The notes under the pieces were generated by a model. That model saw only the letters and a list, made by a program, of their open reading frames with translations. It searched no databases and was not told the origin of the DNA. The position numbers and the translations under genes are program-made. DNA of 26,366 nucleotides from a virus: positions 1 to 26,366 of IMG/VR virus record IMGVR_UViG_3300020159_004593. One strand, 5' to 3'. The number at the start of each line of letters is the position of its first letter. Within the stretch, counting starts at the first letter, position 1. Positions 4,210-26,316 of this stretch are shown here, one piece after another.

Positions 4210-4236
4210 AAAAAACCACTCAATGAGTGGTTTTTT
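4210..4236. terminator. Bidirectional intrinsic terminator between convergent genes
   Basis: Stem CCACTC/GAGTGG (4216-4221 and 4225-4230) with an AAT loop, flanked by six A on the left and six T on the right. It can end transcription in both directions. It lies right after the plus gene ending at 4206 and touches the stop codon of the minus gene ending at 4235. Confidence 0.85.
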
Positions 4237-4852
4237 ATTTTATAGGACAGTGACTTGCTGACCAAATAAATTTATAGTTTCTGGAAATTTTAACACTTAA
4301 AGATTCTGCCGTGGTGAAAATATCATCTAAGCATTCTGAGTCAGATCCACCAACAATCTCTATTGATTTTTCTCCTATATTAGTGAGTACGTTGTATAGT
4401 TTTTTAGGACAATGAAACCATTTATGTTTATTTCCAATATAGGTGATTATTGTTCCTTGATTTGTTTTAAATATCTCACCCTTTTTAAGAGTATTTTTAA
4501 CTTCTTTGTTTTTAATCTCATTAAAAGTCTCTTTATCCAATATAGATTTGAAAAATTTAGAATCTACATCATAGTTATATCTCTTCTCAATTATATCTTT
4601 TTGATTTGGAAATGAATATAGATCTTGATGAATTGGTATTTCAGGATTCTCATCATATAAGTAACTTTTACTTGTATTTTTACCATCTATATGATTGTCC
4701 CATAGTTGATAAACATTTTCAAAATTATTACAATGTTTTTTAAGCTCATTCAAATACATTTCAGTGAAGAATTTTCTAAAACTTTTTTGAACATCTACTA
4801 TTAATAGTACTTTTGAGCTATTAAAACTTTCAAATGTTAATAATTTATTCAT
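4235..4852 (-). CDS. Isochorismatase-fold cysteine hydrolase with a leader-like N-terminus
   Basis: A 205-residue enzyme of the isochorismatase/nicotinamidase-like cysteine hydrolase superfamily. The family signature is visible: VLLIVDVQKSF at residues 15-25 (catalytic Asp20), IIEKRYNYDVDSKFF around Lys90, and IEIVGGSDSECLDDIFTTAE with the nucleophile Cys174. The Asp-Lys-Cys triad is therefore complete and an active enzyme is likely. The substrate cannot be read from the sequence; family members act on nicotinamide, isochorismate and various amides. The first ten residues, MNKLLTFESF, come before the fold and match the leader shared by other proteins in this window, which suggests head packaging (inference). 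It is an isolated gene bounded by two hairpins, so it probably has its own promoter. Confidence 0.75.
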   Translation of the reverse strand: MNKLLTFESFNSSKVLLIVDVQKSFRKFFTEMYLNELKKHCNNFENVYQLWDNHIDGKNTSKSYLYDENPEIPIHQDLYSFPNQKDIIEKRYNYDVDSKFFKSILDKETFNEIKNKEVKNTLKKGEIFKTNQGTIITYIGNKHKWFHCPKKLYNVLTNIGEKSIEIVGGSDSECLDDIFTTAESLSVKISRNYKFIWSASHCPIK

Positions 4853-4864
4853 TGTTTATATATT

Positions 4865-4894
4865 AAAAAACCCATCAATTTATATTGATGGGTT
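4865..4894 (-). terminator. Intrinsic terminator of the minus-strand gene ending at 4917
   Basis: An 11-bp stem AACCCATCAAT/ATTGATGGGTT (4869-4879 and 4884-4894) with a TTAT loop. On the minus strand it is followed by a run of six T (the A run at 4865-4870). It separates the Q/A/P-repeat gene from the hydrolase gene downstream. Confidence 0.85.
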
Positions 4895-4916
4895 TCCTTA
4901 TTTTAGTTTTTTATTA

Positions 4917-5507
4917 TTAAAGAGGTAGTTCTTCACCACCTTCTTCACCACCTTCAGCACCTTCTTCTTTTTCCTCTTCACCTTCTTCAGCAACTTCTTC
5001 AAATTCACCTTGACCCTGTGGTTGAGACTCAGCTTGAACTTGAACTTGTGGTTGTGCCTCAGCTTGTGGTTGTGTTTGTGGTTGTGCTTGAACCGGTTGT
5101 GCTTGAGCTTGTTGTGCTTGAGCTTGTGGCTGATCTTCAGTTTGAGCTTGTGCTGGTTGAGCTTGTGCTGGTTGAGCTTGTGCTTGAGGCTGTGAATCTA
5201 TTTGAGTTTCTCCTTGAGATTGTGCATCACCCATTAGAGCACCTGCTGGGATCTGATCCACATTTAAGAAATTTGTGTTGATATATTTAACAACCTCTTC
5301 AGCGATATCGACATCTCCAAAGAATTGACGAAGATTTTTACCTGTTGTATCTTTTACTTTTTTAACATATGCGTTAATTAAAGATTGTGGAATATCTATA
5401 AATGTTCTAACTTTATAGATGTCATTTACCTGAAGAACAGATTCTTTAATAATTTGATCTTTTTTTCTCAAATTAGTGTATTTTTCAAATTTTCTAAGAT
5501 GTTTCAT
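4917..5507 (-). CDS. Leader-bearing protein with AQAQP repeats and an acidic tail
   Basis: A 196-residue protein in three parts. Residues 1-93 are an ordered N-terminal region starting MKHLRKFEKY, with IIKE followed by S at 19-23. Residues 96-167 are almost only Gln, Ala and Pro in AQAQP-like units. Residues 168-194 are a Glu/Gly-rich acidic tail. The start at 5507 is supported by AGG six bases upstream and by the leader motif shared with other genes here. The IKE/S site fits the T4 prohead protease pattern [LI]-x-E. Acidic low-complexity proteins also occur in T4-type head cores, so an internal head or scaffold-core protein is plausible but unproven. No homologue is recognised for residues 24-93. 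Confidence 0.65.
   Translation of the reverse strand: MKHLRKFEKYTNLRKKDQIIKESVLQVNDIYKVRTFIDIPQSLINAYVKKVKDTTGKNLRQFFGDVDIAEEVVKYINTNFLNVDQIPAGALMGDAQSQGETQIDSQPQAQAQPAQAQPAQAQTEDQPQAQAQQAQAQPVQAQPQTQPQAEAQPQVQVQAESQPQGQGEFEEVAEEGEEEKEEGAEGGEEGGEELPL
5144..5183 (-). repeat. 15-bp tandem repeat coding for AQAQP
   Basis: GAGCTTGTGCTGGTT occurs at 5144-5158 and 5159-5173, followed by a partial third copy. The wider region 5000-5210 holds many diverged versions. It lies inside the Q/A/P-repeat gene and keeps its frame, so copy-number change would alter only linker length. Confidence 0.8.
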
Positions 5508-5550
5508 CCTGTATTTTAATTTTTTATATTATATATATTAAACTTTTTTA

Positions 5551-6051: not shown

Positions 6052-6054
6052 ATT

Positions 6055-6510: not shown

Positions 6511-6548
6511 TGATTCAATATATATATTCAATAAAAAAACCAATTTTT

Positions 6549-7059: not shown

Positions 7060-7341
7060 ATGGCAACTATTACAGAAAAAAAGTCTCAATCTAAAGCAGA
7101 CGAAATACTATCTAAACCATTTAAACTAATACTTCATAATGATGATTATAACACATTTGAGTGGGTTATAACCTGTTTAATGAAAGTGTGTGGACATGAA
7201 TATGAACAAGCAAGTCAATGTGCTCATATTGTACACTTCAAAGGTGAGTGTGATGTTAAATATGGTGAATATGAAAAGATTTCTAAAATGAAGGATAAAT
7301 TACAAAATGCTGGTCTATCTGTAACGATAGAGGAGAATTAA
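7060..7341 (+). CDS. clpS: ATP-dependent Clp protease adaptor ClpS
   Basis: A 93-residue ClpS. The core starts FKLILHNDDYNTFEWVITCL, with Asn27-Asp28-Asp29 and Thr32 matching the N-degron pocket residues of ClpS (NDD motif). His59 in IVHFKGE sits at the position of E. coli ClpS His66. The N-terminal tail that engages ClpA/ClpC is about 20 residues long and Lys/Ser-rich. ClpS delivers proteins with destabilising N-terminal residues to the Clp unfoldase. A phage copy could redirect host proteolysis or tune N-end-rule turnover of phage proteins after prohead protease cleavage; these are inferences. It is cotranscribed with the HAD gene, and its stop overlaps that of the convergent gene at TTAA (7338-7341). 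Confidence 0.92.
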   Translation: MATITEKKSQSKADEILSKPFKLILHNDDYNTFEWVITCLMKVCGHEYEQASQCAHIVHFKGECDVKYGEYEKISKMKDKLQNAGLSVTIEEN

Positions 7342-8143: not shown

Positions 8144-10258
8144 TTAATTATTATTTTTAAATGGATTGTTCCAATTATTTGACAAAACATCGTTTTTATA
8201 TCTATTTTGAGATATCTTTCTCCTTCTTATATCAAGTAATTGTGAGTAATCAACACCCTCGGTATATTCTGAGTTATTCAGTATTTGATCTATGTAGTTT
8301 TTTATAGATGTGTCTGATAATGTGTCTATAAAATCATCAACCAACTGTTTAAAATCATTTTTCTGAAAAATAGCACACATATCAATTAATGTCATTACTG
8401 TATCATCATGTGATGATCCATCCGCTGCATATCTTGTATTCCCTGCATTTGTTGTGTGTTTTATAAATGTTGTAATTTCCGATATGTTTATATCATTTGA
8501 TATAACTATTGATCTTTCTTCCATTCTATCTTGATATTCTTTTACAAGCAGATTCTTATTATCACCGACTTTTAATCCTATTTTTTCTTCAAGTGCATCA
8601 GATCTATGTTTAAATCTAAAAAATATTGAAGATCCATAGTCATTACTACCATCAAATACGTGCGGTAGGTGAGCTAATAGTTCATTTCCATAAGTGTTTA
8701 TCTCTAATACTATTTTAACATTATCTGGATTAAAAAATTCAAATGCTGTTAAGTATAATAGTTCTGAAAGCTGTTGAACCGAAATTAAGTTACTTCTAAA
8801 AATTCCTATTTGTCTTAATTGTACAAAGTCAACAATTGACTTATATTTACTTTTTTGTTTTTCAATTAATTCAATCGGTTTCATATCCATTTTGAATATG
8901 TTTACAACTGTATAATCCTGACCTAATCCTTCAGCCACATCGACTGATATAATTATTTTATAGTTTTTTCTACTTAGTGGTAAAAACTCATCCTCATCTT
9001 GGTTCCATTTAAAATCTTGATAAGAGAATTTCAATTTTCCTTCAAACTCTTCTATTCTTTCCCATTCAAACAATTTCTTATTTTTGGATAACTCATCTAT
9101 TAATGTTTCACTTAACAAACTTCTAGATGAATTTATAAACCTTAAATCATATTCTTGATTAAATGCTTCTTCACCACCAATATCTTTAATAGTCTCTTTT
9201 TTCCAAGTTGTTATATCTGAAAATTCTAATAATCTTACACCATTAAACGATTCAGCGAGTAGATCCTCTTCTGTACAATCTGATGTATTTAGTGATGTTA
9301 TTACCCATTTTTTTAATTCATCATTATATTTTAGATTGTGTTCATTTTTTTTATATTTTTCTCTTAGATATTTAAGTAGTTCTTCATTATTGATGTTAAA
9401 CTCATCTACTTTTTTTGAATTTAATCTTATATAAGTTGCAAATCTTTTTGGAACCTGCCACCAATAAACTCTCTTAGCCATATATGATGACTTTTCTCCT
9501 TCTGGCTTTTCAGCCTCTGTTAATAATTTATGAAAAAGGTTAAATCCGTTAGGTGTTGATGTTATTATAATTTTAGAGTTCTCAATATTTGATACTGTTG
9601 GGAAAACAGATTTATAAAATTTATCAGCTATATTATCTGGTAGATATGCAAACTCATCTAGATATAAAAAGTCAGCAGTTTGACCAATAGATGATGTTTT
9701 AGTGGTTGCAAATCCTTTTATTCGACTTTTATTTTCAAATACCATAAATTTTTGATTCCAGTTTATAATTCCTTGTTGTAGAAAAAACGGAAGTCTTTGG
9801 TAGATTTCTCTTATTTTATCTAATACTTCAACCGCAGTATCTAATTTATTTGCCGTTACTAATACATTTTTATTATTATTGAATAGAACATAATGTAACA
9901 TCATTATAGATGAGCATATTGTTTTTCCTATCTGACGACTCGCCATCAATATATTAAATCTATTAGAAAAGAAATTATCCAATATCTCATTTTGATAATC
10001 TCTTAGTGGTATTATTATTGGTTGTCCTTCTTCACCTTTAATATAACAGTATGTCGCTGCGAAATGGTGTATATCCAATGCACATTTAATATACTCTTCT
10101 TGTTCATCAGGGCTCATTTTGAATGTTAGTCCTGATGTTCTAAGGCCAACAACTTTCTCAAAAAATGGATTGTCCAATCTACTCAATACAAATCCATTGT
10201 TAATTTTCTCAGTAGCTTCTTCGACCATCTTAGTGGTCCATATTACTTGTCTAGACAT
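8144..10258 (-). CDS. Terminase large subunit (T4 gp17-like packaging ATPase/nuclease)
   Basis: A 704-residue DNA packaging motor. ATPase domain: Walker A SRQIGKT (107-113), Walker B FLYLDE (197-202) and the coupling motif TSTPNG (233-238). RNase H-like nuclease domain: SVDVAEGLGQDY (Asp440), VLEIN (Glu519) and SSHDD (Asp618, Asp619), giving the metal-binding acidic residues. The family's VPxR (269-272) and W-x(3)-TI (352-357) landmarks are almost adjacent in T4 gp17 but about 75 residues apart here, so most of the extra length over gp17 (610 aa) is an insertion between ATPase and nuclease domains. It acts on the prohead portal, cutting and translocating concatemeric DNA. It is transcribed divergently from the likely small terminase. 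Confidence 0.95.
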   Translation of the reverse strand: MSRQVIWTTKMVEEATEKINNGFVLSRLDNPFFEKVVGLRTSGLTFKMSPDEQEEYIKCALDIHHFAATYCYIKGEEGQPIIIPLRDYQNEILDNFFSNRFNILMASRQIGKTICSSIMMLHYVLFNNNKNVLVTANKLDTAVEVLDKIREIYQRLPFFLQQGIINWNQKFMVFENKSRIKGFATTKTSSIGQTADFLYLDEFAYLPDNIADKFYKSVFPTVSNIENSKIIITSTPNGFNLFHKLLTEAEKPEGEKSSYMAKRVYWWQVPKRFATYIRLNSKKVDEFNINNEELLKYLREKYKKNEHNLKYNDELKKWVITSLNTSDCTEEDLLAESFNGVRLLEFSDITTWKKETIKDIGGEEAFNQEYDLRFINSSRSLLSETLIDELSKNKKLFEWERIEEFEGKLKFSYQDFKWNQDEDEFLPLSRKNYKIIISVDVAEGLGQDYTVVNIFKMDMKPIELIEKQKSKYKSIVDFVQLRQIGIFRSNLISVQQLSELLYLTAFEFFNPDNVKIVLEINTYGNELLAHLPHVFDGSNDYGSSIFFRFKHRSDALEEKIGLKVGDNKNLLVKEYQDRMEERSIVISNDINISEITTFIKHTTNAGNTRYAADGSSHDDTVMTLIDMCAIFQKNDFKQLVDDFIDTLSDTSIKNYIDQILNNSEYTEGVDYSQLLDIRRRKISQNRYKNDVLSNNWNNPFKNNN

Positions 10259-13154: not shown

Positions 13155-16100
13155 ATGAGAAAAATATTGACAAGAAAAGAGTATATATCTGGATTGAATG
13201 AAAAGCATTATACTAAATATACACTAATAAATGAGGTTTTTGCAAATGACTTGCCTTGGGGAGACACACATATTGGTAGAATGATAAACTCTTTTGCTAG
13301 AAAGGCTAAAATTTCTTTTAATAAAAGAAGAATAAGTGGATTAACTAATAGGTTAAAATCCATTTTTGATGAAATGTTAGAAGTTGGATCTGTTGAGATC
13401 GCTGATAGTTCAGTGAGTATTCTTTTTTTGCAAATATCATCAATACTTGGTATACTTATTTCACAAGTCAATGATGATGCTGATGTTAAGGATTTAATTC
13501 GTACAACAGAAGATCTACTGGATCATGTAAATCGTTATGAGTATGATAAGAAAGAAGAAATGGTTAAAGTATTAAAGGAATTTTTAGAATACTTAAAGAG
13601 TCTCAAATCAGATGATTTAACTACATCTGATGATGATAAAGAGGAGACTAAAGAGACCGGTGATCCAAATAAGATTTTTTATCAGAATTCAAGAAGTCTA
13701 TTACAATCAGTAGTTGATTTACATATGATGATTGAAGAGAATGTTGTTAGAATTGGAGGAGGTCAAGAATCGTATGATAATAAATTGGCAGTTGCTAAAT
13801 CCAAATTAAAAGTAGGTAATGAGTATAACTATTTAAACTCTGAAGGTGTGACTATAAGATGTATGTTATTAAGTTTAACAAATCAGATACAAAGAGCTGT
13901 TGATAAAAAATGGCTTACCGAGGATGATGCTGTTGGTAGGAAGTTAGGACCAGATCAGGCTTGTGTTGTATATAAGAAAGACAAAGATGGTAATGATGTT
14001 CAAGAGTACAATAAAGTATTTAATAGTCAGGTTATTGAGTTATTAAAGCTTTACCCTATTGGTGGTAAGATGCCTGGTAAAATAGAAAAGCCTGGAGAAA
14101 ATTTATCAACAAATTTTAATAAGGATAAATATTCAGAGTTAGAAAAAAAATATCTTTCTTCTAAGAAATATGAGATTATTAAAAATTTGATTAAAATGGG
14201 TGAACAGGCCATTAAGATATACACCGCAAAAAAAGATAATCAGAATTCTAAATTTTATACAGATAAAACTAATAGTTATCTAAGTTCATTGGTTAAGATG
14301 CAGGCAAAAAGTTATGGTATAGCAACTGAAGAAACTAAGGATTTTAAACAACCAGATGGTACAATTAAGAAGAAACCAACTGGTAAGCATAAAGATATTA
14401 AAACTCTAAAAGATGAAATTAAAAGTGTTTCAAAGGAAATTTGGTCAGTTGATCTTCCTTTAGGTAAATCTTCTGGTAAGGTTTCACAACCACCTACTGG
14501 AGTTGCCGCTACTATGCAAAAAGCTAGTTATAATATTGAGACTGACTTTGATTCTATTTTGGAAGAAGTAGAGGCTAATTTACAAAATGAAGAATCACAA
14601 GCAAAAAATGTTTGGAAAAAAATAGTTAATTCTTATAATCAATCTGGTGTTTCTAAATTCATTCCTGAAATAGAGAAACTCTTAAAAGATTCAAAGGATG
14701 TTAGAGTTAAGGATGAATATAAGAAAGCTAAGAGTTTAATCACCACAATTTGTAAACAAATAGTTAATAATAAATCTACTGTTGGTAAGCCAATATCATT
14801 TGAAGATTTAGTTAAAGAAGATTTGAGTGTTAATGATACTTCTAAGTCAATATCACTTATGGCTAGAGTTATTTTATCTTTAAAAGAAGATATGGGACTT
14901 ATTGGATCTTTTGGTAGTGCTATTAGTCCTTTAAAGTCATTTATAACATCATTTTCAGAACTTGAAAAAAATATATCAAAAATATCAACCGATAAAAAAG
15001 AATCATTATACAGGTATACGAATTTTAGTAAGATTTTTGAAAAAAATCAGTATTCTGAACAAATTAAAGAGAAGTTTAATGAGATGTTCACTGAAGAAGT
15101 TAAATCTCATTTTGAGATAAGTGAGTCTAGAAAAGTTGAGATTGAGAAATCAATTAAAGAGAGACCTCAAGGTGAGTTAGTTTTTACAGACGCTGATCCA
15201 ATTATTGAAATTGTTAGATTATTTAATAGAGCTTGGAGAATACACACACCTGGAGTTATTCCTTCTGGTAGAACAGGTGGTAGAGTTTCTAATTCAGTAT
15301 TTAGAGAATATGAAGATTTAGGATCTGGTAATGGTACCCCCGATTCACCAGGAAGTGGTCCTTATAGAAATATTGAATTGTTTGATCAGTGGAATGAGGT
15401 TGTTCAAGATGTATTGAGTGATACTAAATATAGACCTATTTTTAATGAAACTACAGTTTTTAGATTTGTAAACGAAGAGACTGGACAAGAAGGAGATCCC
15501 ATTGAAAAAGGAGGTAAAACTCTTTTAAAATTCATTAATGAACTTCTTTCAGAAAGTAAGATGTATAAAAAGGGAGCTATGAATAATTTTATTGAAGAGT
15601 ATTTTAAGCTTTCAGATAAACAGGTAGAAAAACTGGGAGGTCAATCTTTTGATCCAAGTGATTTAACAAAGAATTCAGAAGTTGTTGATAGCATTAAAGA
15701 TACAGAAGTCATTTATAAAAAATTAGACTCTGTTGCTTCTCTTGGTAATGATTTACATAAAATATTTACAGGTGGGAAAAAGTCCGAATTTGAAGGTCTT
15801 TCTTTTAAAGTTAAATTGAAAGTGGATGATAAGTCAGATACTTATTATTTTAAATATATTTCAACTGAAAATAACTATCCAATTCTTGTTTTTAGTAAAG
15901 TTAATTTTCCATACGATTTGACACAGATTAAAGGTAGAGATATAAATAAAGCAAATATACCTATTAATATTTATTTATCTAGCTTATCACCAACTGGTAA
16001 ATTTAACAACGGTAGTTCGATAGATTTGAAGTTTATTGAGATATCAAGTGATGTTGTAAAACAGGACCAGGTAACAAATAGAAAGAAATTTACGGTAGAG

Positions 16101-16229
16101 AATGTTGAGATTCTTTGTACATCGGAAAGTGGTGATCCATTTTTAGACCTTAATAAGTTTTTGCCTAAGTTTAAAAAGTTTGAAAAAAATATAAATACCG
16201 CTAAGTCGTGGTTAAAATCTAATACCTAA
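13155..16229 (+). CDS. Large unrecognised protein (1024 aa), candidate internal virion protein
   Basis: A 1024-residue, Lys/Glu/Ser-rich protein without signal peptide or membrane helix. The N-terminus (MRKILTRKEYISGLNE, then YTLINEVFANDLPWGD) holds two [LI]-N-E sites like those cut by T4-type prohead proteases. It is variant-matched to the leader of other genes here. Around residues 150-175 is an acidic disordered linker (DDDKEETKETGDP). The C-terminal 150 residues look like a beta-rich domain (KVKLKVDDKSDTYYFKYIST). It starts an operon in which the next two genes also carry leaders and the fourth is the tail sheath. No enzyme motif is seen. An internal head or injected protein is the leading guess; a tail or baseplate component is the alternative. 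Confidence 0.6.
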   Translation: MRKILTRKEYISGLNEKHYTKYTLINEVFANDLPWGDTHIGRMINSFARKAKISFNKRRISGLTNRLKSIFDEMLEVGSVEIADSSVSILFLQISSILGILISQVNDDADVKDLIRTTEDLLDHVNRYEYDKKEEMVKVLKEFLEYLKSLKSDDLTTSDDDKEETKETGDPNKIFYQNSRSLLQSVVDLHMMIEENVVRIGGGQESYDNKLAVAKSKLKVGNEYNYLNSEGVTIRCMLLSLTNQIQRAVDKKWLTEDDAVGRKLGPDQACVVYKKDKDGNDVQEYNKVFNSQVIELLKLYPIGGKMPGKIEKPGENLSTNFNKDKYSELEKKYLSSKKYEIIKNLIKMGEQAIKIYTAKKDNQNSKFYTDKTNSYLSSLVKMQAKSYGIATEETKDFKQPDGTIKKKPTGKHKDIKTLKDEIKSVSKEIWSVDLPLGKSSGKVSQPPTGVAATMQKASYNIETDFDSILEEVEANLQNEESQAKNVWKKIVNSYNQSGVSKFIPEIEKLLKDSKDVRVKDEYKKAKSLITTICKQIVNNKSTVGKPISFEDLVKEDLSVNDTSKSISLMARVILSLKEDMGLIGSFGSAISPLKSFITSFSELEKNISKISTDKKESLYRYTNFSKIFEKNQYSEQIKEKFNEMFTEEVKSHFEISESRKVEIEKSIKERPQGELVFTDADPIIEIVRLFNRAWRIHTPGVIPSGRTGGRVSNSVFREYEDLGSGNGTPDSPGSGPYRNIELFDQWNEVVQDVLSDTKYRPIFNETTVFRFVNEETGQEGDPIEKGGKTLLKFINELLSESKMYKKGAMNNFIEEYFKLSDKQVEKLGGQSFDPSDLTKNSEVVDSIKDTEVIYKKLDSVASLGNDLHKIFTGGKKSEFEGLSFKVKLKVDDKSDTYYFKYISTENNYPILVFSKVNFPYDLTQIKGRDINKANIPINIYLSSLSPTGKFNNGSSIDLKFIEISSDVVKQDQVTNRKKFTVENVEILCTSESGDPFLDLNKFLPKFKKFEKNINTAKSWLKSNT

Positions 16230-16230
16230 A

Positions 16231-16737
16231 ATGAAAAACTTAAAAACATTTGAAGCGTTTTTTGATTTCCTTAAAAAAGATAAATCCGAAAATCAAAAAA
16301 ATAAAAGAGAGACTAAGAATAAATCTAATTTTTCTATAAAAAGTTTTTTTAGTAAAAGAGATGATGAGTTTGCTGAGAAAGTTTTTAACTCTTTAAAAAA
16401 TACTTTAGAATCTAAAGAAGATCAAAAGTCACAAATTTTAGGAGATGTTGTCCGATATGCTGATTATAAGAGAAAAGTCAAATTTAAGTCTAAAGAGGGT
16501 AATATTTATGACATTTCTATCCAAAAATCATCTAGTAAGAATAGAACCACATCGAAGTTATTTTTATCCTCATCTGAGACTTATGTACTGGTTATAAATA
16601 ATAGACATTTTATCGATAGAAAAACCGGAAATCCTACTATTTCTCAATCTATTTCAAAAAAAATATGGGATATTTTAGATAAATCTCATGAAAAAAAGTG
16701 GATTGACAAGGACCGTATGGAGAAAGATTTTGAATAA
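16231..16737 (+). CDS. Small leader-bearing protein (168 aa)
   Basis: It starts MKNLKTFEAFFDFLKKDK, a clear example of the leader shared by several genes in this window. Residues 18-50 are Lys/Asn/Ser-rich and probably disordered. The rest (55-168) is a small alpha/beta domain with KRKVKFKSKEGNIYDISIQK and ETYVLVINNRHFIDRK, which I do not recognise. It begins one base after the stop of the 1024-aa gene (TAA-a-ATG), so the two are translationally linked. The stop codon lies inside the stem of the terminator that follows. Basic, small and leader-tagged fits a T4-style internal protein (inference). Confidence 0.6.
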   Translation: MKNLKTFEAFFDFLKKDKSENQKNKRETKNKSNFSIKSFFSKRDDEFAEKVFNSLKNTLESKEDQKSQILGDVVRYADYKRKVKFKSKEGNIYDISIQKSSSKNRTTSKLFLSSSETYVLVINNRHFIDRKTGNPTISQSISKKIWDILDKSHEKKWIDKDRMEKDFE

Positions 16738-16784: not shown

Positions 16785-17396
16785 ATGAAATATTTAAAGT
16801 ATTTTCCAATTTTTGAAGCAGAAGAGGGAACGGATGATATAAAATCCTTACCAGAAGACCAACAATTGGATGATCAAACAAGATCAGTTAATAAACAAGC
16901 AATTGAGGATTCACAGAGGATTTTAAAAGAGTTTCAGGAAAAAAGAAGTAAAATTGAGAGTATTTTTAAAGATCCTAAAATATCTGATGATACTCTCTTA
17001 GATTCTACTTTAACATCTCAAATTTATAATTCAAAAAAAGAAGCTAGACTTAGAAATAAATGGATTGTTAAATTTGAATCTGTTCTTAGAATGGAAAGAA
17101 GAAAAAATGCACTTCAAGACTCTATAAATAAAGACTTGGATCAAATCAAGAATACTAATGATGATATATCAAGACTTAGTAATGAGATAAGTGACGCTTC
17201 ACAAACTAGAAAGGTTCAAATATCTTCTATGCTTGATAAAAATCGTAAAAGATTGAAAGAGTTGAAAGATAATGTAAACTCAAACAAACGTCTATTATCA
17301 CAAGATACTTTCAATTGGAAAAAGAAGCACGAAGACTTTAAAAAGGATATTAAACTAGAAGAAGATAGAGTGAAAAATTTATTATCTAAAATATAA
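16785..17396 (+). CDS. Leader-bearing coiled-coil protein (203 aa)
   Basis: It starts MKYLKYFPIFEAEEG, the closest match in this window to a T4 capsid-targeting leader: I-F-E followed by A fits the prohead protease rule [LI]-x-E/[AGS]. The remaining 190 residues are very charged and form long helices with heptads (ALQDSINKDLDQIKNTNDD, then ISRLSNEISDASQTRK). T4-type scaffolding and core proteins share this highly helical, charged character, so a head-core or internal protein is a good candidate. The gene follows a terminator by about 25 bases and precedes the sheath by 64, so it may have its own promoter. The family is not recognised. Confidence 0.6.
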   Translation: MKYLKYFPIFEAEEGTDDIKSLPEDQQLDDQTRSVNKQAIEDSQRILKEFQEKRSKIESIFKDPKISDDTLLDSTLTSQIYNSKKEARLRNKWIVKFESVLRMERRKNALQDSINKDLDQIKNTNDDISRLSNEISDASQTRKVQISSMLDKNRKRLKELKDNVNSNKRLLSQDTFNWKKKHEDFKKDIKLEEDRVKNLLSKI

Positions 17397-17460: not shown

Positions 17461-20400
17461 ATGGCAATTCAAATCGGTAAATACAAAAGACCAGGAATCT
17501 TCATAGAAGAGATTGACAAATCGATTATTACCAGTCCTACAGTTGAAGGTTTTGCAAACCTTGTTGTTGGTTTCTCTAAAAAGGGACCAGTTAACTCAGC
17601 TGTTTTATTAAAGACAGTCGGTGATCTTGAAAGAATTTTTGGCTCTGTTGATAGACAATTAGAAAGAAAAGGATCGTTCTTCCACAGAACAATATCAAAA
17701 ATGCTTGAGGCATCTCCAGTCTATGCAGTAAACTTACTCTTGACTGATGATACACTTGATCAGATTGAATATCAATCAGTATCAGCAAGTCCTGTTTATA
17801 GTAATGACATAGAAAGATTAGCATCTTATAGAAAATTCTTCGATACGACTGGTTTCTGGAAAAGAGATACTGATTCTTTTATAGACATCTCAAAAGCTAA
17901 CTCTGGTTATGAGGGTAGAGTTTTAAACTTTACTAACTTATCAGATAGATACATCACAGTATTTTGTGTTAAATCAGCAGTGAGTGGTTTTGATAGACCA
18001 TTGCTTGAATGGTATGGATCTATAGAAAAATTACCACCATATCTTTATCCTACTGATTTGGCTTCTGAATATTTGGTTGATGTTGTAGTTGTTGGTGGTG
18101 ACTGGTCAAATTACCAAGAATTATCTGTTGATCCAAGATGGACAGCATACTTTGGTGAAGATGGTTTAAAGAAATCACAAATAAGAAATTTCGCTAATGA
18201 CAGAAATGTGACATTACTTGGATACTATGAAGGACTTTCTTTGATTCCATATTTTAGAGATTTGAACGGTAGAAATATATTTATAGAAACTGTTATAAAC
18301 AGAGAGACTGATAGAACTGGTCTATTCTGTGCATTTAATAACGACTTGGTAGAAACAGATTATCCTAAAGGTCTACTTGACTTAGTTGGTAATTCATTAG
18401 TTTCTGATGATTTATTGAGTAATCCTCCAACATCTGATAAGACATACTATCAATCACTTGATGCTAATGATGGTAGTATTGATGGTGAACTTTCTATTAA
18501 CTTCTTATCATATAATGAGAAAATAACTGAAACATTAGCTTATTCAAATAGAGTTCTTGATAGACCGGGTAACGTAGTTGCTATTTTTGGTACAACATCA
18601 ATTACTAAATTGAATACTTGGACACACTCTTATAATGACTCTTCATCTGTTTTAGGTGGGGTTATATCTGGTCCGAATTTAGATGTTAATTTGGGATATG
18701 TTAAATATCCACAAAGAACATATTGGTTCGCTGAAGGATATGTTAATGACCTTTATAGATCTGGTGGTTTTATTACAACTACTCATAGTGTTAAATTAGA
18801 TTATGCTGTTAATTCAACTTCTAATAATGGTTATGCGATAATTGGTGGTAACTATATTCCACTTGCTGGTACATATTCAACTGAGTTGTTATACACTGAC
18901 TATCCACAACTTGGTACAGCATCAGGTACACAGTCTTATAACATTGCTTATGTTATAGATACACAAGGTAATATTTCTGTTAAAAAGACAACTGCTACTG
19001 GTTCAAAACCAACAGTTAGTGCTACAGATGTAGTTCTTGGTTGGGGTACAGTTAGTTTGAATGCTGGTATCTTCGTAACAGGTTCTTTTGCACCTTCTAT
19101 TACAGATGTTACTATTGGACTTACTTCTAGTACTGGAGCTGGAGCTGACGCTTACATTCCTTTGACAAAAGATGTGGACTTCACATTCTCTACTGCTTCT
19201 ACAGCTCAATTGGTACTTGCTCATGGTGACTTTAAAGTTACATTCTTAGATACAAACTCAACACCTGATGTTACTAACTATTCACAATATAGAAAGTTCA
19301 AATTGTTCAGTTCTTTACTTACTTATATTGACACAAGTGCTACATTTAGAGGATCTATGTTGTTAACTCCTAATACTACAACTGATAAAATGAGTTTATC
19401 AAGTGTTACATTTAGTAATATAGCACTTGGAACAACGGTTAATAAATCATTTGTTGTTTCTACTGGATTAGAACCATCAGATTTAAATGAAATTTTAACT
19501 CGTGGTGAATTAGCATTCTACAAATTAGATGATGAATTCTTAATCGGTCAAGCTGGTTTCGAGACAAAAGACACTATACCTGTTATTGATGGTACTACAA
19601 CATCTTATGGTGTTGTTGGTAAATACTCTAGATTCTATACACAATATGATCAGGGCATCATTAGTACTGGAGACATCTTCTATCAAAATGAATTAAGTGA
19701 TGATGTTAAAGTTAGTTTTGTACGTGGATCTTCCGCTACAGCTTCACTTTCTGGTTACAACTATGTTGTTTTCCAAGTTGAAAAGAATAGAACTTACACT
19801 TCAAGAAATGAAAACTACTTCGAGGCAGTTAATGACTACCAAGGAGATGATACTGGTGTACAAGGATATCAATTTTTAATTGGTGGTGTTAATAATTCTG
19901 GAGCATTTACTGTTAAGTATGACCAAGGATTGGCAATTGAAAATGGACTGTCTCTACCATATGACGCATCTGGTGATTCTGCCCTTGGTGGTAGAGCATT
20001 CTTATTAGCAACTTATAGTGGTGGTGTGTTAGATTTTATTGATAACGCTACTTATAGCTACTACGCTTATGAGGTGTTTGAAGACGTTGTTACTGAGGAG
20101 TTAAATATTAGTAAGTTATACGGATATAATTCAGAGTTCAATGGAGGTCCAGTTTATTTGGCACCTTACTTGAAGGATAATGGTGACCTTGTTGTTTCTT
20201 TTGTAGATTCTACACTTGAAGGACAAAATCTACTATCAACTTTGAATGATGTTGATGGTAATCCATTAGCTACAAATGGTACAATTTATGTTAAGTCACA
20301 GAAGAGTAACTTTAAACAAACTATCGAGGTTGAATATCCAAGTGGATGGACACCAATTCCTAATAAGATTCTTGTTAATAGAAACAGATATGCTGAAGTT

Positions 20401-21660
20401 AGAGTTGGTGATTTCTTAGAAGCATCTTATGATCCTACTTTACTTAAAGCAGATCAAATGCCTAAGAAACTTACTAGAATTCAGACTAAGAAAGTTTGGT
20501 CAGGTGATTCTAACTATGTCGAGTTATCTTGTGATACATCTATCAAATTGAGAACATTCAATGGTGATGTTCAAACTAATAGATATACTAAGATTGATGA
20601 TTATGTTACAACATATAAGGCTATATCACTTAAAGGATTTAGACTTAGAGACGCATCTATTCCAGATGGTACTGAGACAAAACAATCAGCTATCTTAGAT
20701 GTTATCACAAAGGGTACTCCTTTATTCAAAGCTTTGACAAATAAAGAAGCATTTGACTTCAGATATTTGATAGACTCATTTGGATTAGGTCTTAGTGCAG
20801 ATTCTAAACAACAATTGGTTGACATTTGTGGTGATAGATTGGATGCATTTGGTATCTTAAATATGCCATCATTGAAATTATTTAAAAATTCTGTAAATCC
20901 ACTTTTCAAAGATGGAAATGGAACTTTACAAATTGAATATATTGCAAAAGGTGGTGATCCTGAAAGCAACCCAGAGTTCTTATACTCATTCGGTAAAGGA
21001 ATCGGAGTTACTTCAGTTGGATACTTCTTACCTTATGTTACAATTGATGACTTTGGAAGACCAATTGATGTTCCACCATCAGCTTATGTAGGATTAACAT
21101 TTATGAGAAAGCATAATAGTACAACTACAAGTATTGTTCCTTGGACAATCGCTGCGGGTGTTAATAATGGTAGAATTACTGGAATTCAAGATCTTGAGCA
21201 GATATTTACACCATCTGATTTGGAATACTTGAACCAGGCTCAAATTAATCCATTAACATTCAAGAGAAACAGAGGATTCGTAATTGAAACTGAGAACACT
21301 GCACAAGTTCTTTATAAATCAGCTCTTTCTTTCATACACGTGAGAGAAGTATTGATTGAACTTGAGAGAGAACTTTCAAGAATGTTGTTAGACTTCCAGT
21401 GGAAATTTAACACTAAAGAAATCAGAGCTCAGATTAAGTTACAAGCTGACGTTATCTGTGAGAAGTATGTAGCACAGAATGGTCTATATAACTACTTCAA
21501 CAAGATTGATGAGGAAAACAATACCGCAGAAATTATTGACAATCAAATTGGTGTACTTGATACCTATGTTGAACCAATAAAAGGTATGGGTATTATAGTT
21601 AACAATATAACTATCTTGAGAACTGGAGCTATCTCAGCAGGTGGATTCATTAACTCATAA
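17461..21660 (+). CDS. Contractile tail sheath protein (T4 gp18-like), giant form
   Basis: The N-terminus (RPGIFIEEIDKSIITSPTVE, then FANLVVGFSKKGPVN, VLLKTVGDLERIFG) is the classic start of myovirus sheath proteins. The last 200 residues (TFMRKHNSTTTSIVPWTIAA, then GRITGIQDLEQIFTPSDLEY, NRGFVIETENTA, FIHVREVLIELERELSRML) are the conserved C-terminal domain that packs on the tail tube. At 1399 residues it is about twice T4 gp18 (659). The excess lies mainly at about residues 380-980, rich in Ser, Thr, Gly, Asn and Tyr, and looks like several inserted beta domains that would decorate the outside of the tail. It polymerises around the tube and contracts on infection. Two hairpins follow. Codon use is smoother and richer in preferred codons than in neighbours, in keeping with high expression. 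Confidence 0.93.
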   Translation: MAIQIGKYKRPGIFIEEIDKSIITSPTVEGFANLVVGFSKKGPVNSAVLLKTVGDLERIFGSVDRQLERKGSFFHRTISKMLEASPVYAVNLLLTDDTLDQIEYQSVSASPVYSNDIERLASYRKFFDTTGFWKRDTDSFIDISKANSGYEGRVLNFTNLSDRYITVFCVKSAVSGFDRPLLEWYGSIEKLPPYLYPTDLASEYLVDVVVVGGDWSNYQELSVDPRWTAYFGEDGLKKSQIRNFANDRNVTLLGYYEGLSLIPYFRDLNGRNIFIETVINRETDRTGLFCAFNNDLVETDYPKGLLDLVGNSLVSDDLLSNPPTSDKTYYQSLDANDGSIDGELSINFLSYNEKITETLAYSNRVLDRPGNVVAIFGTTSITKLNTWTHSYNDSSSVLGGVISGPNLDVNLGYVKYPQRTYWFAEGYVNDLYRSGGFITTTHSVKLDYAVNSTSNNGYAIIGGNYIPLAGTYSTELLYTDYPQLGTASGTQSYNIAYVIDTQGNISVKKTTATGSKPTVSATDVVLGWGTVSLNAGIFVTGSFAPSITDVTIGLTSSTGAGADAYIPLTKDVDFTFSTASTAQLVLAHGDFKVTFLDTNSTPDVTNYSQYRKFKLFSSLLTYIDTSATFRGSMLLTPNTTTDKMSLSSVTFSNIALGTTVNKSFVVSTGLEPSDLNEILTRGELAFYKLDDEFLIGQAGFETKDTIPVIDGTTTSYGVVGKYSRFYTQYDQGIISTGDIFYQNELSDDVKVSFVRGSSATASLSGYNYVVFQVEKNRTYTSRNENYFEAVNDYQGDDTGVQGYQFLIGGVNNSGAFTVKYDQGLAIENGLSLPYDASGDSALGGRAFLLATYSGGVLDFIDNATYSYYAYEVFEDVVTEELNISKLYGYNSEFNGGPVYLAPYLKDNGDLVVSFVDSTLEGQNLLSTLNDVDGNPLATNGTIYVKSQKSNFKQTIEVEYPSGWTPIPNKILVNRNRYAEVRVGDFLEASYDPTLLKADQMPKKLTRIQTKKVWSGDSNYVELSCDTSIKLRTFNGDVQTNRYTKIDDYVTTYKAISLKGFRLRDASIPDGTETKQSAILDVITKGTPLFKALTNKEAFDFRYLIDSFGLGLSADSKQQLVDICGDRLDAFGILNMPSLKLFKNSVNPLFKDGNGTLQIEYIAKGGDPESNPEFLYSFGKGIGVTSVGYFLPYVTIDDFGRPIDVPPSAYVGLTFMRKHNSTTTSIVPWTIAAGVNNGRITGIQDLEQIFTPSDLEYLNQAQINPLTFKRNRGFVIETENTAQVLYKSALSFIHVREVLIELERELSRMLLDFQWKFNTKEIRAQIKLQADVICEKYVAQNGLYNYFNKIDEENNTAEIIDNQIGVLDTYVEPIKGMGIIVNNITILRTGAISAGGFINS

Positions 21661-23180: not shown

Positions 23181-23807
23181 ATGCCGCTTCCACATTTTAC
23201 TCAATTACAAGTAACTGGTAGTCCTGGGGGACCTGGTACTCAACCACAAGAGCCAGTATATTTAAATTTATTTGAAATCACCTTTGTACTTCCAACAATA
23301 TTACAAGCACAAGGTAGAGATCCTGTATTGTTATTACAACAAGCACTTTCAGTTGACTTGAATTTGACAAATAAAACTATTGCAACTTCTAACCAAAGAT
23401 GGAAGTACACAACAAGAGCATTCTTAAATGCTGGTCCTGCTGAAACACACATTGATGATTTAGCAATAACATTCAATGTTAACGTTAATAATAACGGTTC
23501 AATGGAAAGCTGGGCAGCTTTGAAAGCTTGGTATGATTTGGTGTGGAATTCACAAAATGGTTATTTACATTATAAGGCTGATACTATTGGTACTATTATA
23601 GTAAACCAACATGATAAGAAAGGTCTTGTATTGAGAAGAGTTACTTTCCAAAATGCTCAGATTAAGTCTGTGGCGAGTCCTACTTTAAACTATGATGGGC
23701 AAGGTATTCTTCAAAATATCACAGCTAACTTCGTTGCTGACTACTGGATTGATGAGTATATTGATAACAACTTCACTATCACTCCTCCATTTGTTCAAGG
23801 ATATTAA
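23181..23807 (+). CDS. Tail tube protein (T4 gp19-like)
   Basis: A 208-residue structural protein. NLFEITFVLPTIL near residue 28, then WKALKAWYDLVWN-type text (ESWAALKAWYDLVWNSQNGY), HYKADTIGTIIVNQHDKKG and VLRRVTFQNAQIKSV follow the gp19 tube-protein pattern of a beta-barrel that stacks in hexamers to form the inner tube. It is slightly longer than T4 gp19 (163 aa), mostly from a Gly/Pro-rich N-terminal segment (GSPGGPGTQPQEP) and a C-terminal extension. It pairs functionally with the sheath but is separated from it by the two minus-strand hub-assembly genes. It ends at a strong hairpin and has regular, preferred codon use, as expected of an abundant virion protein. Confidence 0.85.
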   Translation: MPLPHFTQLQVTGSPGGPGTQPQEPVYLNLFEITFVLPTILQAQGRDPVLLLQQALSVDLNLTNKTIATSNQRWKYTTRAFLNAGPAETHIDDLAITFNVNVNNNGSMESWAALKAWYDLVWNSQNGYLHYKADTIGTIIVNQHDKKGLVLRRVTFQNAQIKSVASPTLNYDGQGILQNITANFVADYWIDEYIDNNFTITPPFVQGY

Positions 23808-23830
23808 TAGTAATAATTTAGAAAATACTA

Positions 23831-23860: not shown

Positions 23861-23912
23861 ATTTAAAACAAGTTCTAATCTATTCATATAAATTACAAAT
23901 ATAATTGTATGA

Positions 23913-25019
23913 ATGAAAGTATTTATTACAACAGATTGGCATTTTGGTGTCTATGTCAATAATTTAGATAAATGGTTAAATATGATGGAAGATTATTTCT
24001 ATAACTTCTTCATTCCATATCTTAAAGAAAATGTTAAAGAAGGTGATGTATTAATACACTGTGGAGATCTTTATGATAACAGAACTTCCATTCCTATAAT
24101 TGCATCATATAAAGCTGAAAAAATACTAACTGAGATATCTAAAATACTTCCAGTTCACCTGATTGTTGGTAATCACGATCTTTGGAATAAAGGATCTAAT
24201 GATATTAATTCTGTACGTCTTTTCAACTTTGTTGATAATATCAATGTCTATACTGATACAACTACTATTGAACTATTTGGAAGTAAATTAGTTTTAATGC
24301 CTTGGGTTGAAAAGAGATTAGATATGATTAAACAGATTCAATCTAATTCTGGAGATTATTTATTCTGTCATAGTGATTTAAATGGGTGTAGAATGCACTT
24401 AAATTCTGTTGCTCATAGGAATGCTGATAAGATAGATGTTGATGAGTTTAATCGATTTAAACACGTATTTTCGGGTCACATACATATAAGACAAACTAAT
24501 AAGAATTTTACATTTATTGGCTCGCCATATCAAATGGATAGAAATGATATGGGAGATCAGAAAGGAATAACTGTTTTAGACTTAATAAGTGGTGATATTC
24601 ATTTTGAACCTAATACACACTCACCAGTTTTTAAAAAGGTACAAGTTGTTAATGAAGATGATATTGAGTTGATTGACTCTTTAAAAGATACAAAAGATTA
24701 TGTTGATTTGGCTATTTCCAATAATCTATTAATTAATAATCGTAAATTAAGAAGAAAGTTAGAAACAATTTTAGAAACTGGTAATTTTGCTTCAGTTGAA
24801 TATCTTGATGATATTGTTAAAACTGAAAAAGAAAAGAAAGAAAAAGAATTAACAGAAGAAGAATTACAAATTTCTATTCAATTAGAATATGAAGAATTTA
24901 TTAAAGGATACATTCAGAGTCAAAATTACGAAAGTGATCCTTTTAAAGAAGGACTATTAGGGGAATTTGAAGAGGTTATTCGTATTTATAATGAGAATTA
25001 TAAGGTTAAGAATGAATAA
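23913..25019 (+). CDS. SbcD/Mre11-type recombination nuclease subunit (T4 gp47-like)
   Basis: A 368-residue metallophosphoesterase with all nuclease motifs in order: TTDWHFG (Asp8, His10), HCGDLYDNR (Asp52), VGNHDLW (Asn87, His88), FCHSDLNG (His153) and FSGHIHIR (His189, His191). The match to T4 gp47 is good throughout the first 260 residues (also VLMPWVE and FIGSPYQMDRND). The C-terminal part is charged and helical, as in the segment that docks on the SMC-like partner (gp46/SbcC). The partner gene is not in this window. The complex processes DNA ends for recombination-dependent replication and takes part in host DNA breakdown. TATAAATT at 23887 is a possible late-type box. T4 keeps gp47 with replication genes; here it follows the tail tube. 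Confidence 0.92.
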   Translation: MKVFITTDWHFGVYVNNLDKWLNMMEDYFYNFFIPYLKENVKEGDVLIHCGDLYDNRTSIPIIASYKAEKILTEISKILPVHLIVGNHDLWNKGSNDINSVRLFNFVDNINVYTDTTTIELFGSKLVLMPWVEKRLDMIKQIQSNSGDYLFCHSDLNGCRMHLNSVAHRNADKIDVDEFNRFKHVFSGHIHIRQTNKNFTFIGSPYQMDRNDMGDQKGITVLDLISGDIHFEPNTHSPVFKKVQVVNEDDIELIDSLKDTKDYVDLAISNNLLINNRKLRRKLETILETGNFASVEYLDDIVKTEKEKKEKELTEEELQISIQLEYEEFIKGYIQSQNYESDPFKEGLLGEFEEVIRIYNENYKVKNE

Positions 25020-25078
25020 AGAAACTTTAAAGAAACAACATTATTTTAATTTTAGGATATAAAAATAAAAAAAGAACT

Positions 25079-25657
25079 ATGAATATAGGAATAAAACCCA
25101 CTGGTGCTTGGGATTATAATACCAACTCACATGATGAAAGTAGATATTTAGATATACCCCTAGCTAATTGGATTGTAAATTTTCTTAAAGAACACAACAT
25201 AACTAATCTATTTGACTTTGGATGTTCCACGGGTTACTATTTAAAATATATCTCAGAAAAAACTACTAATATAAATCTGATTGGTGTGGAGCCTAGTATT
25301 CAAGAAAGAAATGATAAGTTCTTTGAGAACATTCTGTCATACGACCTTGCTCTACCATTCAGTTTAGAACAAAGGGGTTCAGTACTTTGTTTAGAAGTAT
25401 TAGAACATATTCCACCACAGTTTGAATCAAATGCTATAGATAATGTAGTTAATCACTGTGATAAATATCTACTTATGAGCTGGGCCACACCAGGACAAGG
25501 TGGTTATGGACATTTCAATGAGAAAAGCTTTGATGATGTTTTAATACTTTTTAAAAGTAGGGGATTTAATTTGATGGAAGAAGAAACTAAAGAAGCTAGA
25601 AGTGTTTCAACACTATACTGGTTACAAAATAATTTCTCAGTTTTTCAGAGAGTATAA
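25079..25657 (+). CDS. Class I SAM-dependent methyltransferase
   Basis: A 192-residue methyltransferase with a Rossmann fold. Motif I is LFDFGCSTGYYLKYI (44-58), an acidic residue ends strand 2 (GVEPS, Glu71), and the post-I region reads SVLCLEVLEHIPP (101-113). The EVLEHIP form is typical of small-molecule, sugar or lipid methyltransferases, and no DNA-methylase catalytic motif (NPPY or PCQ) is present, so DNA methylation is unlikely. The SWATPGQGGYGHFNEKS stretch resembles phage and bacterial methyltransferases found near polysaccharide genes. The substrate is unknown; modification of a virion glycan or host surface is possible. It follows the gp47-like gene by 59 bases. Confidence 0.85.
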   Translation: MNIGIKPTGAWDYNTNSHDESRYLDIPLANWIVNFLKEHNITNLFDFGCSTGYYLKYISEKTTNINLIGVEPSIQERNDKFFENILSYDLALPFSLEQRGSVLCLEVLEHIPPQFESNAIDNVVNHCDKYLLMSWATPGQGGYGHFNEKSFDDVLILFKSRGFNLMEEETKEARSVSTLYWLQNNFSVFQRV

Positions 25658-25666
25658 CAGTTTTTA

Positions 25667-25936
25667 TTAAAATTTTTCTAATTTAATTTTTAAATCACTA
25701 GTTCCTTTTATTATTCTGTGATAAACACCTTTTGGTATAAATATTTCACCTTCTATATTAATTGGTAATTTATCATCTAGTTGAAATTTCCAATCAGTTT
25801 CTTCAATTGATTCTATTACTCTATCTTCGAAATCACGATGCCAGTATAAATCTCCAGAATCAACATCTTGATAGAATGTTCTAATGAATGTATTTTCAGA
25901 TACTTGTTCTTCTTTAAATGGTAGTGTATCTTTCAT
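25667..25936 (-). CDS. Small cupin-like phage protein
   Basis: An 89-residue protein. The pattern FIRTFYQDVDSGDLYWHRDF, EDRVIE, WKFQLDD, LP, IFIPKGVYHRIIKG matches a small single-domain family common in T4-like marine phages, with the turn and His layout of a cupin barrel (His33, His73). It probably binds a metal, but no reaction can be assigned. Its ATG overlaps the stop of the upstream gene in ATGA (25933-25936), so translation is coupled. It converges with the methyltransferase gene with only 9 bases between the stops and no hairpin. Confidence 0.65.
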   Translation of the reverse strand: MKDTLPFKEEQVSENTFIRTFYQDVDSGDLYWHRDFEDRVIESIEETDWKFQLDDKLPINIEGEIFIPKGVYHRIIKGTSDLKIKLEKF

Positions 25937-26316
25937 AAGGTAAATATTATATGTATGTCTCTTTCAACATTTCCATTTACATCGATCTGTGTTTCAAATT
26001 CGAATTTAGTTTTTATATTTGGGTATTCATCTTCTACTCTTTTTATACAAGTTTTTATCGTCCTTGAAAAGTTAAGAAATGATTCTGCATTTTCAATATA
26101 GTCATCAATATCTCCTCTTAATCCTCTAATTGATCCATCTTTTACTGAGTTTTTATATATCATTGGCTCTTTTATAAATATTTCCCAATACATATCACCT
26201 GTCTCTATATCATAGTCTACCTCAGCACCATTGTCAATAAAATCATCAAATATGAAATTTAAATATTTCGGATCGATTGTATCAGACTTCGATTCATTAA
26301 ACTTTCTTATCTTCAT
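25933..26316 (-). CDS. Small leader-bearing protein (127 aa)
   Basis: It starts MKIRKFNESKSD, a shortened version of the N-terminal leader found on other genes of this window (F-N-E then S). The rest is an acidic alpha/beta domain (DFIDNGAEVDYDIETGDMYW, then YPNIKTKFEFETQIDVNGNV) of a type often seen as an unassigned small protein in large phages. It has no signal peptide or membrane helix. It forms a two-gene unit with the cupin-like gene through an ATGA overlap. Function is unknown. The upstream 50 bases to the window end show no clear promoter. Confidence 0.6.
   Translation of the reverse strand: MKIRKFNESKSDTIDPKYLNFIFDDFIDNGAEVDYDIETGDMYWEIFIKEPMIYKNSVKDGSIRGLRGDIDDYIENAESFLNFSRTIKTCIKRVEDEYPNIKTKFEFETQIDVNGNVERDIHIIFTL

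Follow-up and report, generated by a model that had tools for sequence, protein, structure and literature searches.

The stretch of viral DNA considered here, positions 1 to 26,366 of IMG/VR virus record IMGVR_UViG_3300020159_004593 (26,366 bases, 29% G+C; hereafter the window), encodes six proteins that begin with a similar leader of about ten residues. A preliminary description, made from the sequence alone, likened this leader to the capsid-targeting, protease-cleaved signal of the internal head proteins of phage T4, and proposed that the window encodes a set of head-packaged, injected proteins. A program check confirms that the six open reading frames (ORFs) begin where that description placed them and with the N-termini it quoted (Table 1); the remainder of each protein is indeed unrelated, with no mutual BLAST match at E 1e-3. 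The best matches of the window's large terminase (TerL) are those of LR745206 (635 kilobases, kb; 56% identity), LR756502 (642 kb, 55%), LR756501 (735 kb, 41%) and LR756504 (636 kb, 38%), while nearer IMG/VR fragments carry a TerL that is 77-87% identical. Al-Shayeb et al. (2020), in the available text, assign their four largest complete genomes to the Mahaphage clade with Bacteroidetes as predicted hosts (PMC7162821). Judged by TerL identities and not by a tree, the T4-like phage from which the window comes probably stands near the 634-735 kb Mahaphages.

Table 1. Leaders, leader-bearing (tagged) proteins and context genes of the window; a slash marks a predicted cut and phi a hydrophobic residue.
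Feature	Position	Strand	Basis or remark
Leader MNKLLTFESF of the isochorismatase/nicotinamidase-like protein	4823..4852	-	Profile 0.98; F7xxF10; no clear phi-x-E
Tagged 205-residue protein, predicted cysteine-hydrolase fold	4235..4852	-	AlphaFold model and fold comparison
Leader, linker and predicted site, MKHLRKFEKY...IIKE/S	5442..5507	-	EM profile; 12-sequence alignment
Tagged conserved protein with Q/A/P-rich acidic tail	4917..5507	-	No family above cut-off
Variant leader and predicted site, MRKILTRKEY...LINE/V	13155..13235	+	Profile 0.60/0.43; alignment
Tagged 1024-residue protein	13155..16229	+	No family match
Leader MKNLKTFEAF	16231..16260	+	F7xxF10; no clear phi-x-E
Tagged 168-residue protein, no family assigned	16231..16737	+	Family scans; BLAST
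Leader and predicted site, MKYLKYFPIFE/A	16785..16817	+	Homologues have FLE/A, FE/A or FLE/E
Tagged coiled-coil-like protein (read from sequence), adjoins sheath gene	16785..17396	+	
One-residue-shorter leader and predicted site, MKIRKFNE/S	26293..26316	-	Homologues; model
Tagged 127-residue protein	25933..26316	-	LR745206 homologues with full class A leader
TerL, T4-type large terminase	8144..10258	-	Untagged; anchor placing the window near Mahaphages
Tail sheath	17461..21660	+	Untagged; context
Tail tube	23181..23807	+	Untagged; context

Comparison of gene starts confirms that the leader is real, genome-wide and carried by proteins that are unrelated beyond it. Genes, start codons included, were called by our own script (one start in phage Syn33 differs from the record); proteins shorter than 50 residues or with odd letters were excluded from the leader counts, and LR756501 was covered over 400 of its 735 kb. 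The pattern offered in the preliminary description, M-[KNR]-x-[LI]-x-x-[FR]-[EPN] at residues 1-8, occurs in 4 of the 29 genes of the window (column-shuffle mean 0.29, maximum 3 in 500) and, as that description anticipated, is enriched genome-wide: it is found in 38 of 897 genes of LR745206 (shuffle mean 3.82, maximum 11), 42 of 912 of LR756502 and 17 of 856 of LR756504, with enrichment in all seven relatives tested, at 4 of 3211 internal methionines of LR745206, and in none of the 288 genes of Tenacibaculum phage PTm1. A profile over residues 2-10 trained by expectation maximisation (EM), with a score cut of 0.9, marks 369 of 3361 starts as tagged against a column-shuffle mean of 23.4 (maximum 37 in 200 shuffles) and 10 of 12,415 internal methionines. 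These starts comprise 114/891 in LR745206, 149/906 in LR756502, 54/853 in LR756504, 20/154, 11/68 and 17/174 in three fragments, 4/29 in the window and 0/286 in PTm1; fragment G010 was excluded from these counts as a repeat of G007, and the 20 kb stretch taken from G003 was unused. With the aim of limiting circularity, the profile was retrained on LR745206 alone, and then marks 121/891 starts there, 146/906 in LR756502, 52/853 in LR756504, 20/154, 9/68 and 18/174 in the fragments, 8/494 in LR756501, 4/29 in the window and none in PTm1, T4 or Syn33, with about 0.1% of internal methionines positive. This training was seeded with the preliminary pattern, which itself derived from the window, and the window's 4/29 is therefore not independent.

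The leader occurs in two forms that have the aromatic spacing [FY]xx[FY] in common. Class A reads M[KR][YH][LI][KR]x[FY]xx[FY], mainly MK[YH]LKx[FY]xx[FY], and in most cases a phi-x-E site comes soon behind it; class B has [FY]xx[FY][IL]xE within the first dozen or so residues. At residue 7 the spacing is found 69, 98 and 52 times in LR745206, LR756502 and LR756504 against backgrounds of 8.6, 8.5 and 9.6; in the covered part of LR756501 the peak lies at residue 5 (46 against 5.6), and PTm1 has none (5 against 2.8 at residue 7). Class B, counted with a somewhat looser regular expression, is found in 22, 25 and 21 genes of LR745206, LR756502 and LR756504 and in 29/494 of LR756501. The same expression is met at 9/3067, 7/3237, 12/2666 and 10/2068 internal methionines of these four genomes, and 2-4 chance matches per genome are therefore to be expected. 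Both classes together amount to 133/891 genes in LR745206, 166/906 in LR756502, 64/853 in LR756504 and 33/494 in LR756501, that is, 15% and 18% of genes in two genomes and about 7% in two more.

Four of the six window leaders score 0.98-1.00 with the EM profile, and four contain [FY]xx[FY]. The leader at 13155(+) has R7/Y10 in its place and stays under the cut (0.60, or 0.43 with the profile trained on LR745206 alone), and that at 26316(-), which has F6 only, scores 0.000. A one-residue insertion behind its residue 2 brings the latter to 1.000 (best of 20 residues tried), and its LR745206 homologues W01_455887 (start trimmed to an inner methionine) and W01_457944 have the full MKYLKKYNES and MKHLKRYNES. 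The [LI]-x-E sites that the preliminary description listed behind several leaders (IFE/A, IKE/S, LNE/K, INE/V) are where it put them, the site predicted at 26316(-) being FNE/S. Four of the six leaders have a phi-x-E site, but those at 4852(-) and 16231(+) have no convincing one, so the epithet cleaved may not hold for every tagged protein. Where homologues can be aligned, the site accompanies the domain behind it. In the 4917 family, E/S precedes the same domain in 12 of 12 aligned sequences while the linker varies (IKE in seven, VNE in two, IRE and VKE in one each, and one TNE, which is not phi-x-E), and in the 13155 family INE, IKE, VNE or LLE stands in front of the conserved WGDSLIGRL domain in eight of the ten sequences, with TNE in the other two. 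The 1024-residue protein that heads this last family matches only 2 of 50,697 phage records, both of them huge phages, and appears confined to this phage group; a search for related loci by short exact patterns, which are probably poorly conserved, found nothing, but BLAST against the fetched genomes did find homologues.

That the tagged set includes an enzyme, as first described, is supported by the predicted structure of the 4235..4852 product. Its AlphaFold model (mean predicted local distance difference test score, pLDDT, 81.7) aligns with nicotinamidase 6kua_E in VIA-align at Z 9.9 (root-mean-square deviation 2.8, 121 residues aligned), and nearly all of the 50 matches listed are named isochorismatase, nicotinamidase or related hydrolases. 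The model thus argues for a nicotinamidase/isochorismatase fold, but the sequence and Foldseek evidence is weak, with no convincing Pfam match and a best Foldseek E of only 0.014. D20, D52, H54, K90 and C174 are invariant in 24 sequences of the family and are candidates for the catalytic Asp/Lys/Cys and metal-site roles. Starts were obtained for 43 of 45 IMG/VR relatives (L265 and L267 gave none); they represent 31 distinct proteins, all with a recognisable leader but L270, which fits a loose leader pattern only nominally and is not counted. The leader lies outside the domain at pLDDT below 50 both in this model (residues 1-11) and in that of the 25933..26316 product (residues 1-9), for which a fold search yielded no convincing match (the best, at E 0.004 and a template modelling score of about 0.4, are to portions of larger peptidases).

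The association of the leader with a cut site was measured with the tag set by residues 1-5 only, since a first test was partly circular. The site was defined as [hydrophobic]-x-E-[SANGDE] within residues 6-24, with F, V, M, W and Y allowed beside L/I before x-E; proteins sharing residues 13-24 were removed (3055 left), the rest were treated as independent, and starts of the form M[KR]x[LIV] outside the tagged set were kept out of the comparison group. A site is present in 178 of 258 tagged proteins against 530 of 2508 others, in 44 of 247 tagged proteins when residues 60-78 are taken as control, and in 75.7 on average (maximum 96) when residues 6-24 of the tagged proteins are shuffled. The residue after the predicted cut gives the site the form phi-x-E/[SNAE]. 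A T4 variant with Asp at position 10 is targeted but unprocessed according to the available text of PMC9026906, and targeting without cutting is therefore possible.

The tag also behaves as a module that can be present or absent on a given protein. Between the two best-matching large genomes, 418 reciprocal ortholog pairs (tagged internal starts within the first 46 residues being accepted as well) comprise 43 in which both members are tagged, 11 and 10 that are one-sided and 354 with neither tagged; by eye, many one-sided cases are variant leaders missed by the patterns. The RNA ligase 1 homologue of LR745206 begins MKLFKYIEFINENSKNEYSIPSY, and among the best 15 of 1500 records the alignment starts at residue 1-2 in LR745206 and LR756502 only, and at residue 16 or later in the remaining 13 matches listed. 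The LR756501 ortholog can be said to lack the leader because its residue 2 matches residue 16 of LR745206. From these alignments the tag appears to be an added module on RNA ligase 1.

The likeness to the T4 internal proteins proposed at the outset holds residue by residue. In the T4 capsid-targeting sequence (CTS), residues 4 and 7 target, residues 8 and 10 serve processing, and gp21 cuts after L/I-x-E, as the available text of PMC9026906 has it. The conserved positions of class B are these same targeting and processing positions, and the class B expression finds 4 of 247 genes in T4 (ipII, ipIII, 61.1 and 24.2) and 2 of 161 in Syn33. T4 IPI, an annotated internal virion protein, begins MKTFKEF...TITE/A and thus has an aromatic pair, a spacer and a site in the layout of class A; TITE/A is what we take to be its actual cut position. 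Three of the control genes merit separate mention. T4 gene 61.1 (NC_000866.4, 18966-19130), beside the primase gene, encodes a 54-residue hypothetical protein beginning MKTFKEFIKED, very like the leaders of IPII and IPIII, and its product is possibly an overlooked internal protein. In Syn33 (GU071108), the gene at 99408-99734 has the leader MKSYNEFISES, the record starting it four codons upstream (99396), and that at 146376-147533, annotated 'cytitidyltransferase', has MKKFSAFLTEA.

The preliminary description had raised the question of a gp21-like protease, and relatives encode one: of 18 records searched, seven have a gp21-type S77 domain, namely LR745206, LR756502, LR756504, LR756501, PTm1 and two IMG/VR fragments (G002 and G007). 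A PF03420 search of the 26 kb window fragment gave no match, the control genomes of that search being silent as well. By coordinates, the protease lies beside a Gp23-family capsid gene, present in the same seven records (7 of 9 searched). In the six huge-phage records, protease and scaffold appear to form one ORF of 699-807 residues (198546-200669 in LR745206), the tail of which consists of 14-residue repeats such as YSEYIAENLDKNIA, carrying [FY]xx[FY][IL]xE and each with a potential cut site; the 597-residue open frame with the protease in PTm1 (AP019524) is without these repeats. The LR745206 scaffold has 11 motif matches, 10 of them in tandem at exact 14-residue spacing. The strict form [FY]xE[FY][ILV]AE occurs 10, 10, 7 and 7 times in LR745206, LR756502, LR756504 and LR756501, all but one inside the protease-scaffold ORF; T4 has it twice, once each in ipII and ipIII. 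A profile built from 69 scaffold repeats of the six records, chosen by the motif itself, gives its two best scores among 49,125 windows of T4 to IPII and IPIII, and its best among 49,545 of Syn33 to MKSYNEFISES. Among its top 30 matches outside the scaffold, 8, 7, 4 and 9 start at residues 3-8 of a protein in LR745206, LR756502, LR756504 and LR756501, against 0.8-0.9 expected. The capsid protein carries a related element: its N-terminus includes YAEFHSINE/N or a close variant in 5 of the 6 huge-phage records with a called capsid gene, LR756501 having YAEMHQMNE/N, and the general form is Y-x-x-[FYM]...(I/M)xE/N. The PTm1 capsid protein has TINE/N with no aromatic pair, and T4 gp23, whose propeptide is 65 residues long (PMC9026906), has FGSFLTE/A with the Glu at residue 65.

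Taken together, sequence comparison supports the preliminary reading, and we consider it likely that the leader is a CTS of the T4 kind. The tagged proteins would then be packaged, cut and injected. The likeliest course is as follows: the leader would act as one scaffold-repeat unit, through which the cargo would join the growing prohead core; at maturation the S77 protease would cut after Glu and shred the scaffold, and the freed cargo, packed in the head with the DNA, would be delivered at infection. The 4917, 13155 and 16785 families, near head and tail genes, are perhaps inner-core structural proteins, the 4917..5507 product being a candidate prohead-core component, and the many small variable tagged proteins and tagged enzymes would more likely be take-over or counter-defence cargo, as are T4 IPI-III. 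For the wider proposal, that Mahaphage-type virions are delivery capsules for more than 100 different proteins and that the tag copies one scaffold-repeat unit, the case is evenly balanced.

Several observations on this uncultured clade weigh against the interpretation. The S77 matches of the huge phages fall below the Pfam cut-off (20-26 against 27 bits), which is exceeded only in PTm1 and in T4 and Syn33, the positive controls, and PTm1 has the protease but no leaders. Class A is unlike the scaffold repeat, the only common features, and thus the sole apparent link, being the aromatic spacing and the site. Many high matches of the scaffold-repeat profile lie inside huge-phage proteins, and by the measure given above G002 and G007 yield 2 and 5 matches near starts while the PTm1 control yields 3 against 0.8 expected. 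Tagging is sparser in LR756504 and LR756501, and phi-x-E is missing from two of the six window leaders and, with Glu sought at residues 9-32, from 37 of the 227 class A leaders that have [FY]xx[FY] at 7/10. A DnaG-like protein, endolysins and the PQ-loop membrane protein of LR756502 are not obvious cargo. Finally, the tagged proteins are slightly more acidic than others, unlike the internal proteins of T4-type phages, which the available text of PMC9026906 describes as basic.

It is also conceivable, though unlikely, that the leader docks proteins for assembly only, the tagged set being parts of the core or of the morphogenesis machinery, either removed or kept in the shell, without being delivered. 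The conserved 4917, 13155 and 16785 families among head and tail genes, the tagging of 10 of the 63 genes in the corresponding LR745206 module and the resemblance of class B to the scaffold repeat itself would all suit such a role. However, 133 and 166 tagged proteins appear too many and too varied for it: beyond residue 25, the 133 of LR745206 form 126 clusters and 164 from LR756502 form 142, the largest holding 3 and 10 members. Tagged genes moreover sit together, with 45 same-strand adjacent pairs in LR745206 against 14.7 expected (maximum 24), 65 against 23.0 (maximum 34) in LR756502 and 8 against 2.5 (maximum 7) in G002; the 9 against 3.4 in LR756504 are within its shuffles (maximum 10). 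Enzyme domains are also tagged (T4 RNA ligase 1, NUDIX, 2H phosphoesterase with exonuclease, PPK2, lysozyme), which assembly alone would not call for. Less probable still, to the point of being improbable, is a signal for localisation elsewhere in the cell, such as the membrane or a replication compartment, or for protein stability. Short N-terminal signals are capable of such roles, a ClpS homologue is encoded in the window and a PQ-loop membrane protein is among those tagged. Such a signal would not account for the phi-x-E/[SNAE] sites, nor for the match of the leader to the scaffold repeat, to the capsid propeptide and to the T4 CTS residues mapped by experiment, and a secretion signal peptide in particular is not indicated, the leaders being charged without a hydrophobic core (judged from the profile, in which K/R, E/N and aromatics abound at columns 5-9). 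That the shared start arises at the DNA or RNA level (as a copied 5' element or a translation enhancer) or is the trace of recent gene duplication can practically be discounted: tagged genes do cluster, some leaders are near-identical and codon sharing in LR745206 is slightly above expectation (0.603 against 0.537), yet synonymous codons vary nearly as elsewhere, no DNA is shared upstream of the tagged genes of LR745206, paralogues form only small families and the leader is kept in homologues that differ widely beyond it. Selection acts on the protein and not on the DNA.

If the leader is a CTS, the tagged proteins constitute a catalogue of candidate cargo, most of it without a known family. 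In LR745206 (133 scanned; 25 of 32 Pfam families listed) it includes NUDIX, RNA ligase 1, a nucleotide cyclase domain, endolysins, a DnaG-like protein and, at record positions 448257-449573, a 2H phosphoesterase (2'-5' RNA ligase family) fused to a DnaQ-type exonuclease. This last protein was not called as Acb1, which acts against the cyclic-oligonucleotide-based antiphage signalling system (CBASS), its Pfam match being 23.1 against a cut-off of 27 bits. Twenty large tagged LR745206 proteins run singly against Pfam left 16 without a family at E 0.01, and ten more run against PHROGs gave one endolysin and nothing for nine; the DnaG-like member was not located. In LR756502, where 60 of the 166 tagged proteins were scanned (those of at least 180 residues and inside one stretch), matches are to PPK2, HNH, methyltransferase, lysozyme, a PQ-loop protein and RNA ligase 1. 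A role of some of these proteins against defences based on nucleotides or nicotinamide adenine dinucleotide would fit. Three other genes of the window are recorded for completeness. The phage-encoded ClpS homologue (7060-7341; Pfam E 2.5e-19) belongs to the adaptors that serve N-terminal degrons and occurs in a phage that possibly generates many new N-termini by cutting. The frame at 12298-12576 contains repeats such as GNWKYGVFKNGEFHGNWHNGIFEGG, which we take to resemble MORN-type repeats, and that at 23913-25019 has, from its motif, what is presumably an SbcD/gp47-type phosphoesterase look.

Should the wider proposal above be correct, the scaffold of these phages would be a generic loading dock, and about ten added codons would make any gene cargo. 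The leader, if a CTS, would provide a sequence rule by which to read which proteins, for the most part of unknown function, some of the largest known phages inject, and with it a list of candidate counter-defence and take-over proteins; about 133 and 166 candidates in two genomes are far above the handful of capsid-packaged proteins of T4. From the likeness of the leader to the scaffold repeat and the capsid propeptide comes a specific hypothesis, open to experiment, on the way the T4 CTS acts, and the leader could serve as a portable loading tag. The idea that a CTS loads various proteins in T4-like phages is already published (available text of PMC9026906). We found no report of a leader of this kind in huge phages in the open-library literature, papers outside it being uncovered, nor any earlier report, in the literature searched, of the scale of tagging or of the link to a scaffold repeat.

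Among known systems, the closest is the CTS of T4 IPI-III (Mullaney and Black, 1996, as given in the available text of PMC9026906), likewise about ten N-terminal residues on unrelated bodies, with an aromatic pair three apart, then phi-x-E, and an S77 protease in the genome. The available text of PMC12373910 describes T4 Ip1, Ip2 and Ip3 as injected restriction inhibitors. T4 has three such proteins, as opposed to the 133 and 166 candidates here; in the main form here the aromatic pair lies three residues further in, often with a separate site as in IPI; and the scaffold of these phages, unlike that of T4, bears the leader motif as a repeat. T4 gp21 and gp22 offer a parallel in an S77 protease beside a Gp23-family capsid gene and a scaffold rich in potential phi-x-E sites, but they are separate genes of 212 and 269 residues, whereas here a single ORF carries tandem 14-residue repeats. 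The heads of phiKZ and SPN3US, as far as the available text of PMC10052503 describes them, are similar in that N-terminal propeptides are cut after Glu by a gp21-related protease and many head proteins are ejected into the host. SPN3US differs according to the same text in its A-x-E cuts (14 sites in nine proteins) and in its propeptides, six of the eight N-terminal ones being 111-254 residues long and two 20 and 24; some 80% of its head proteins escape cutting, and no short common leader is described there.

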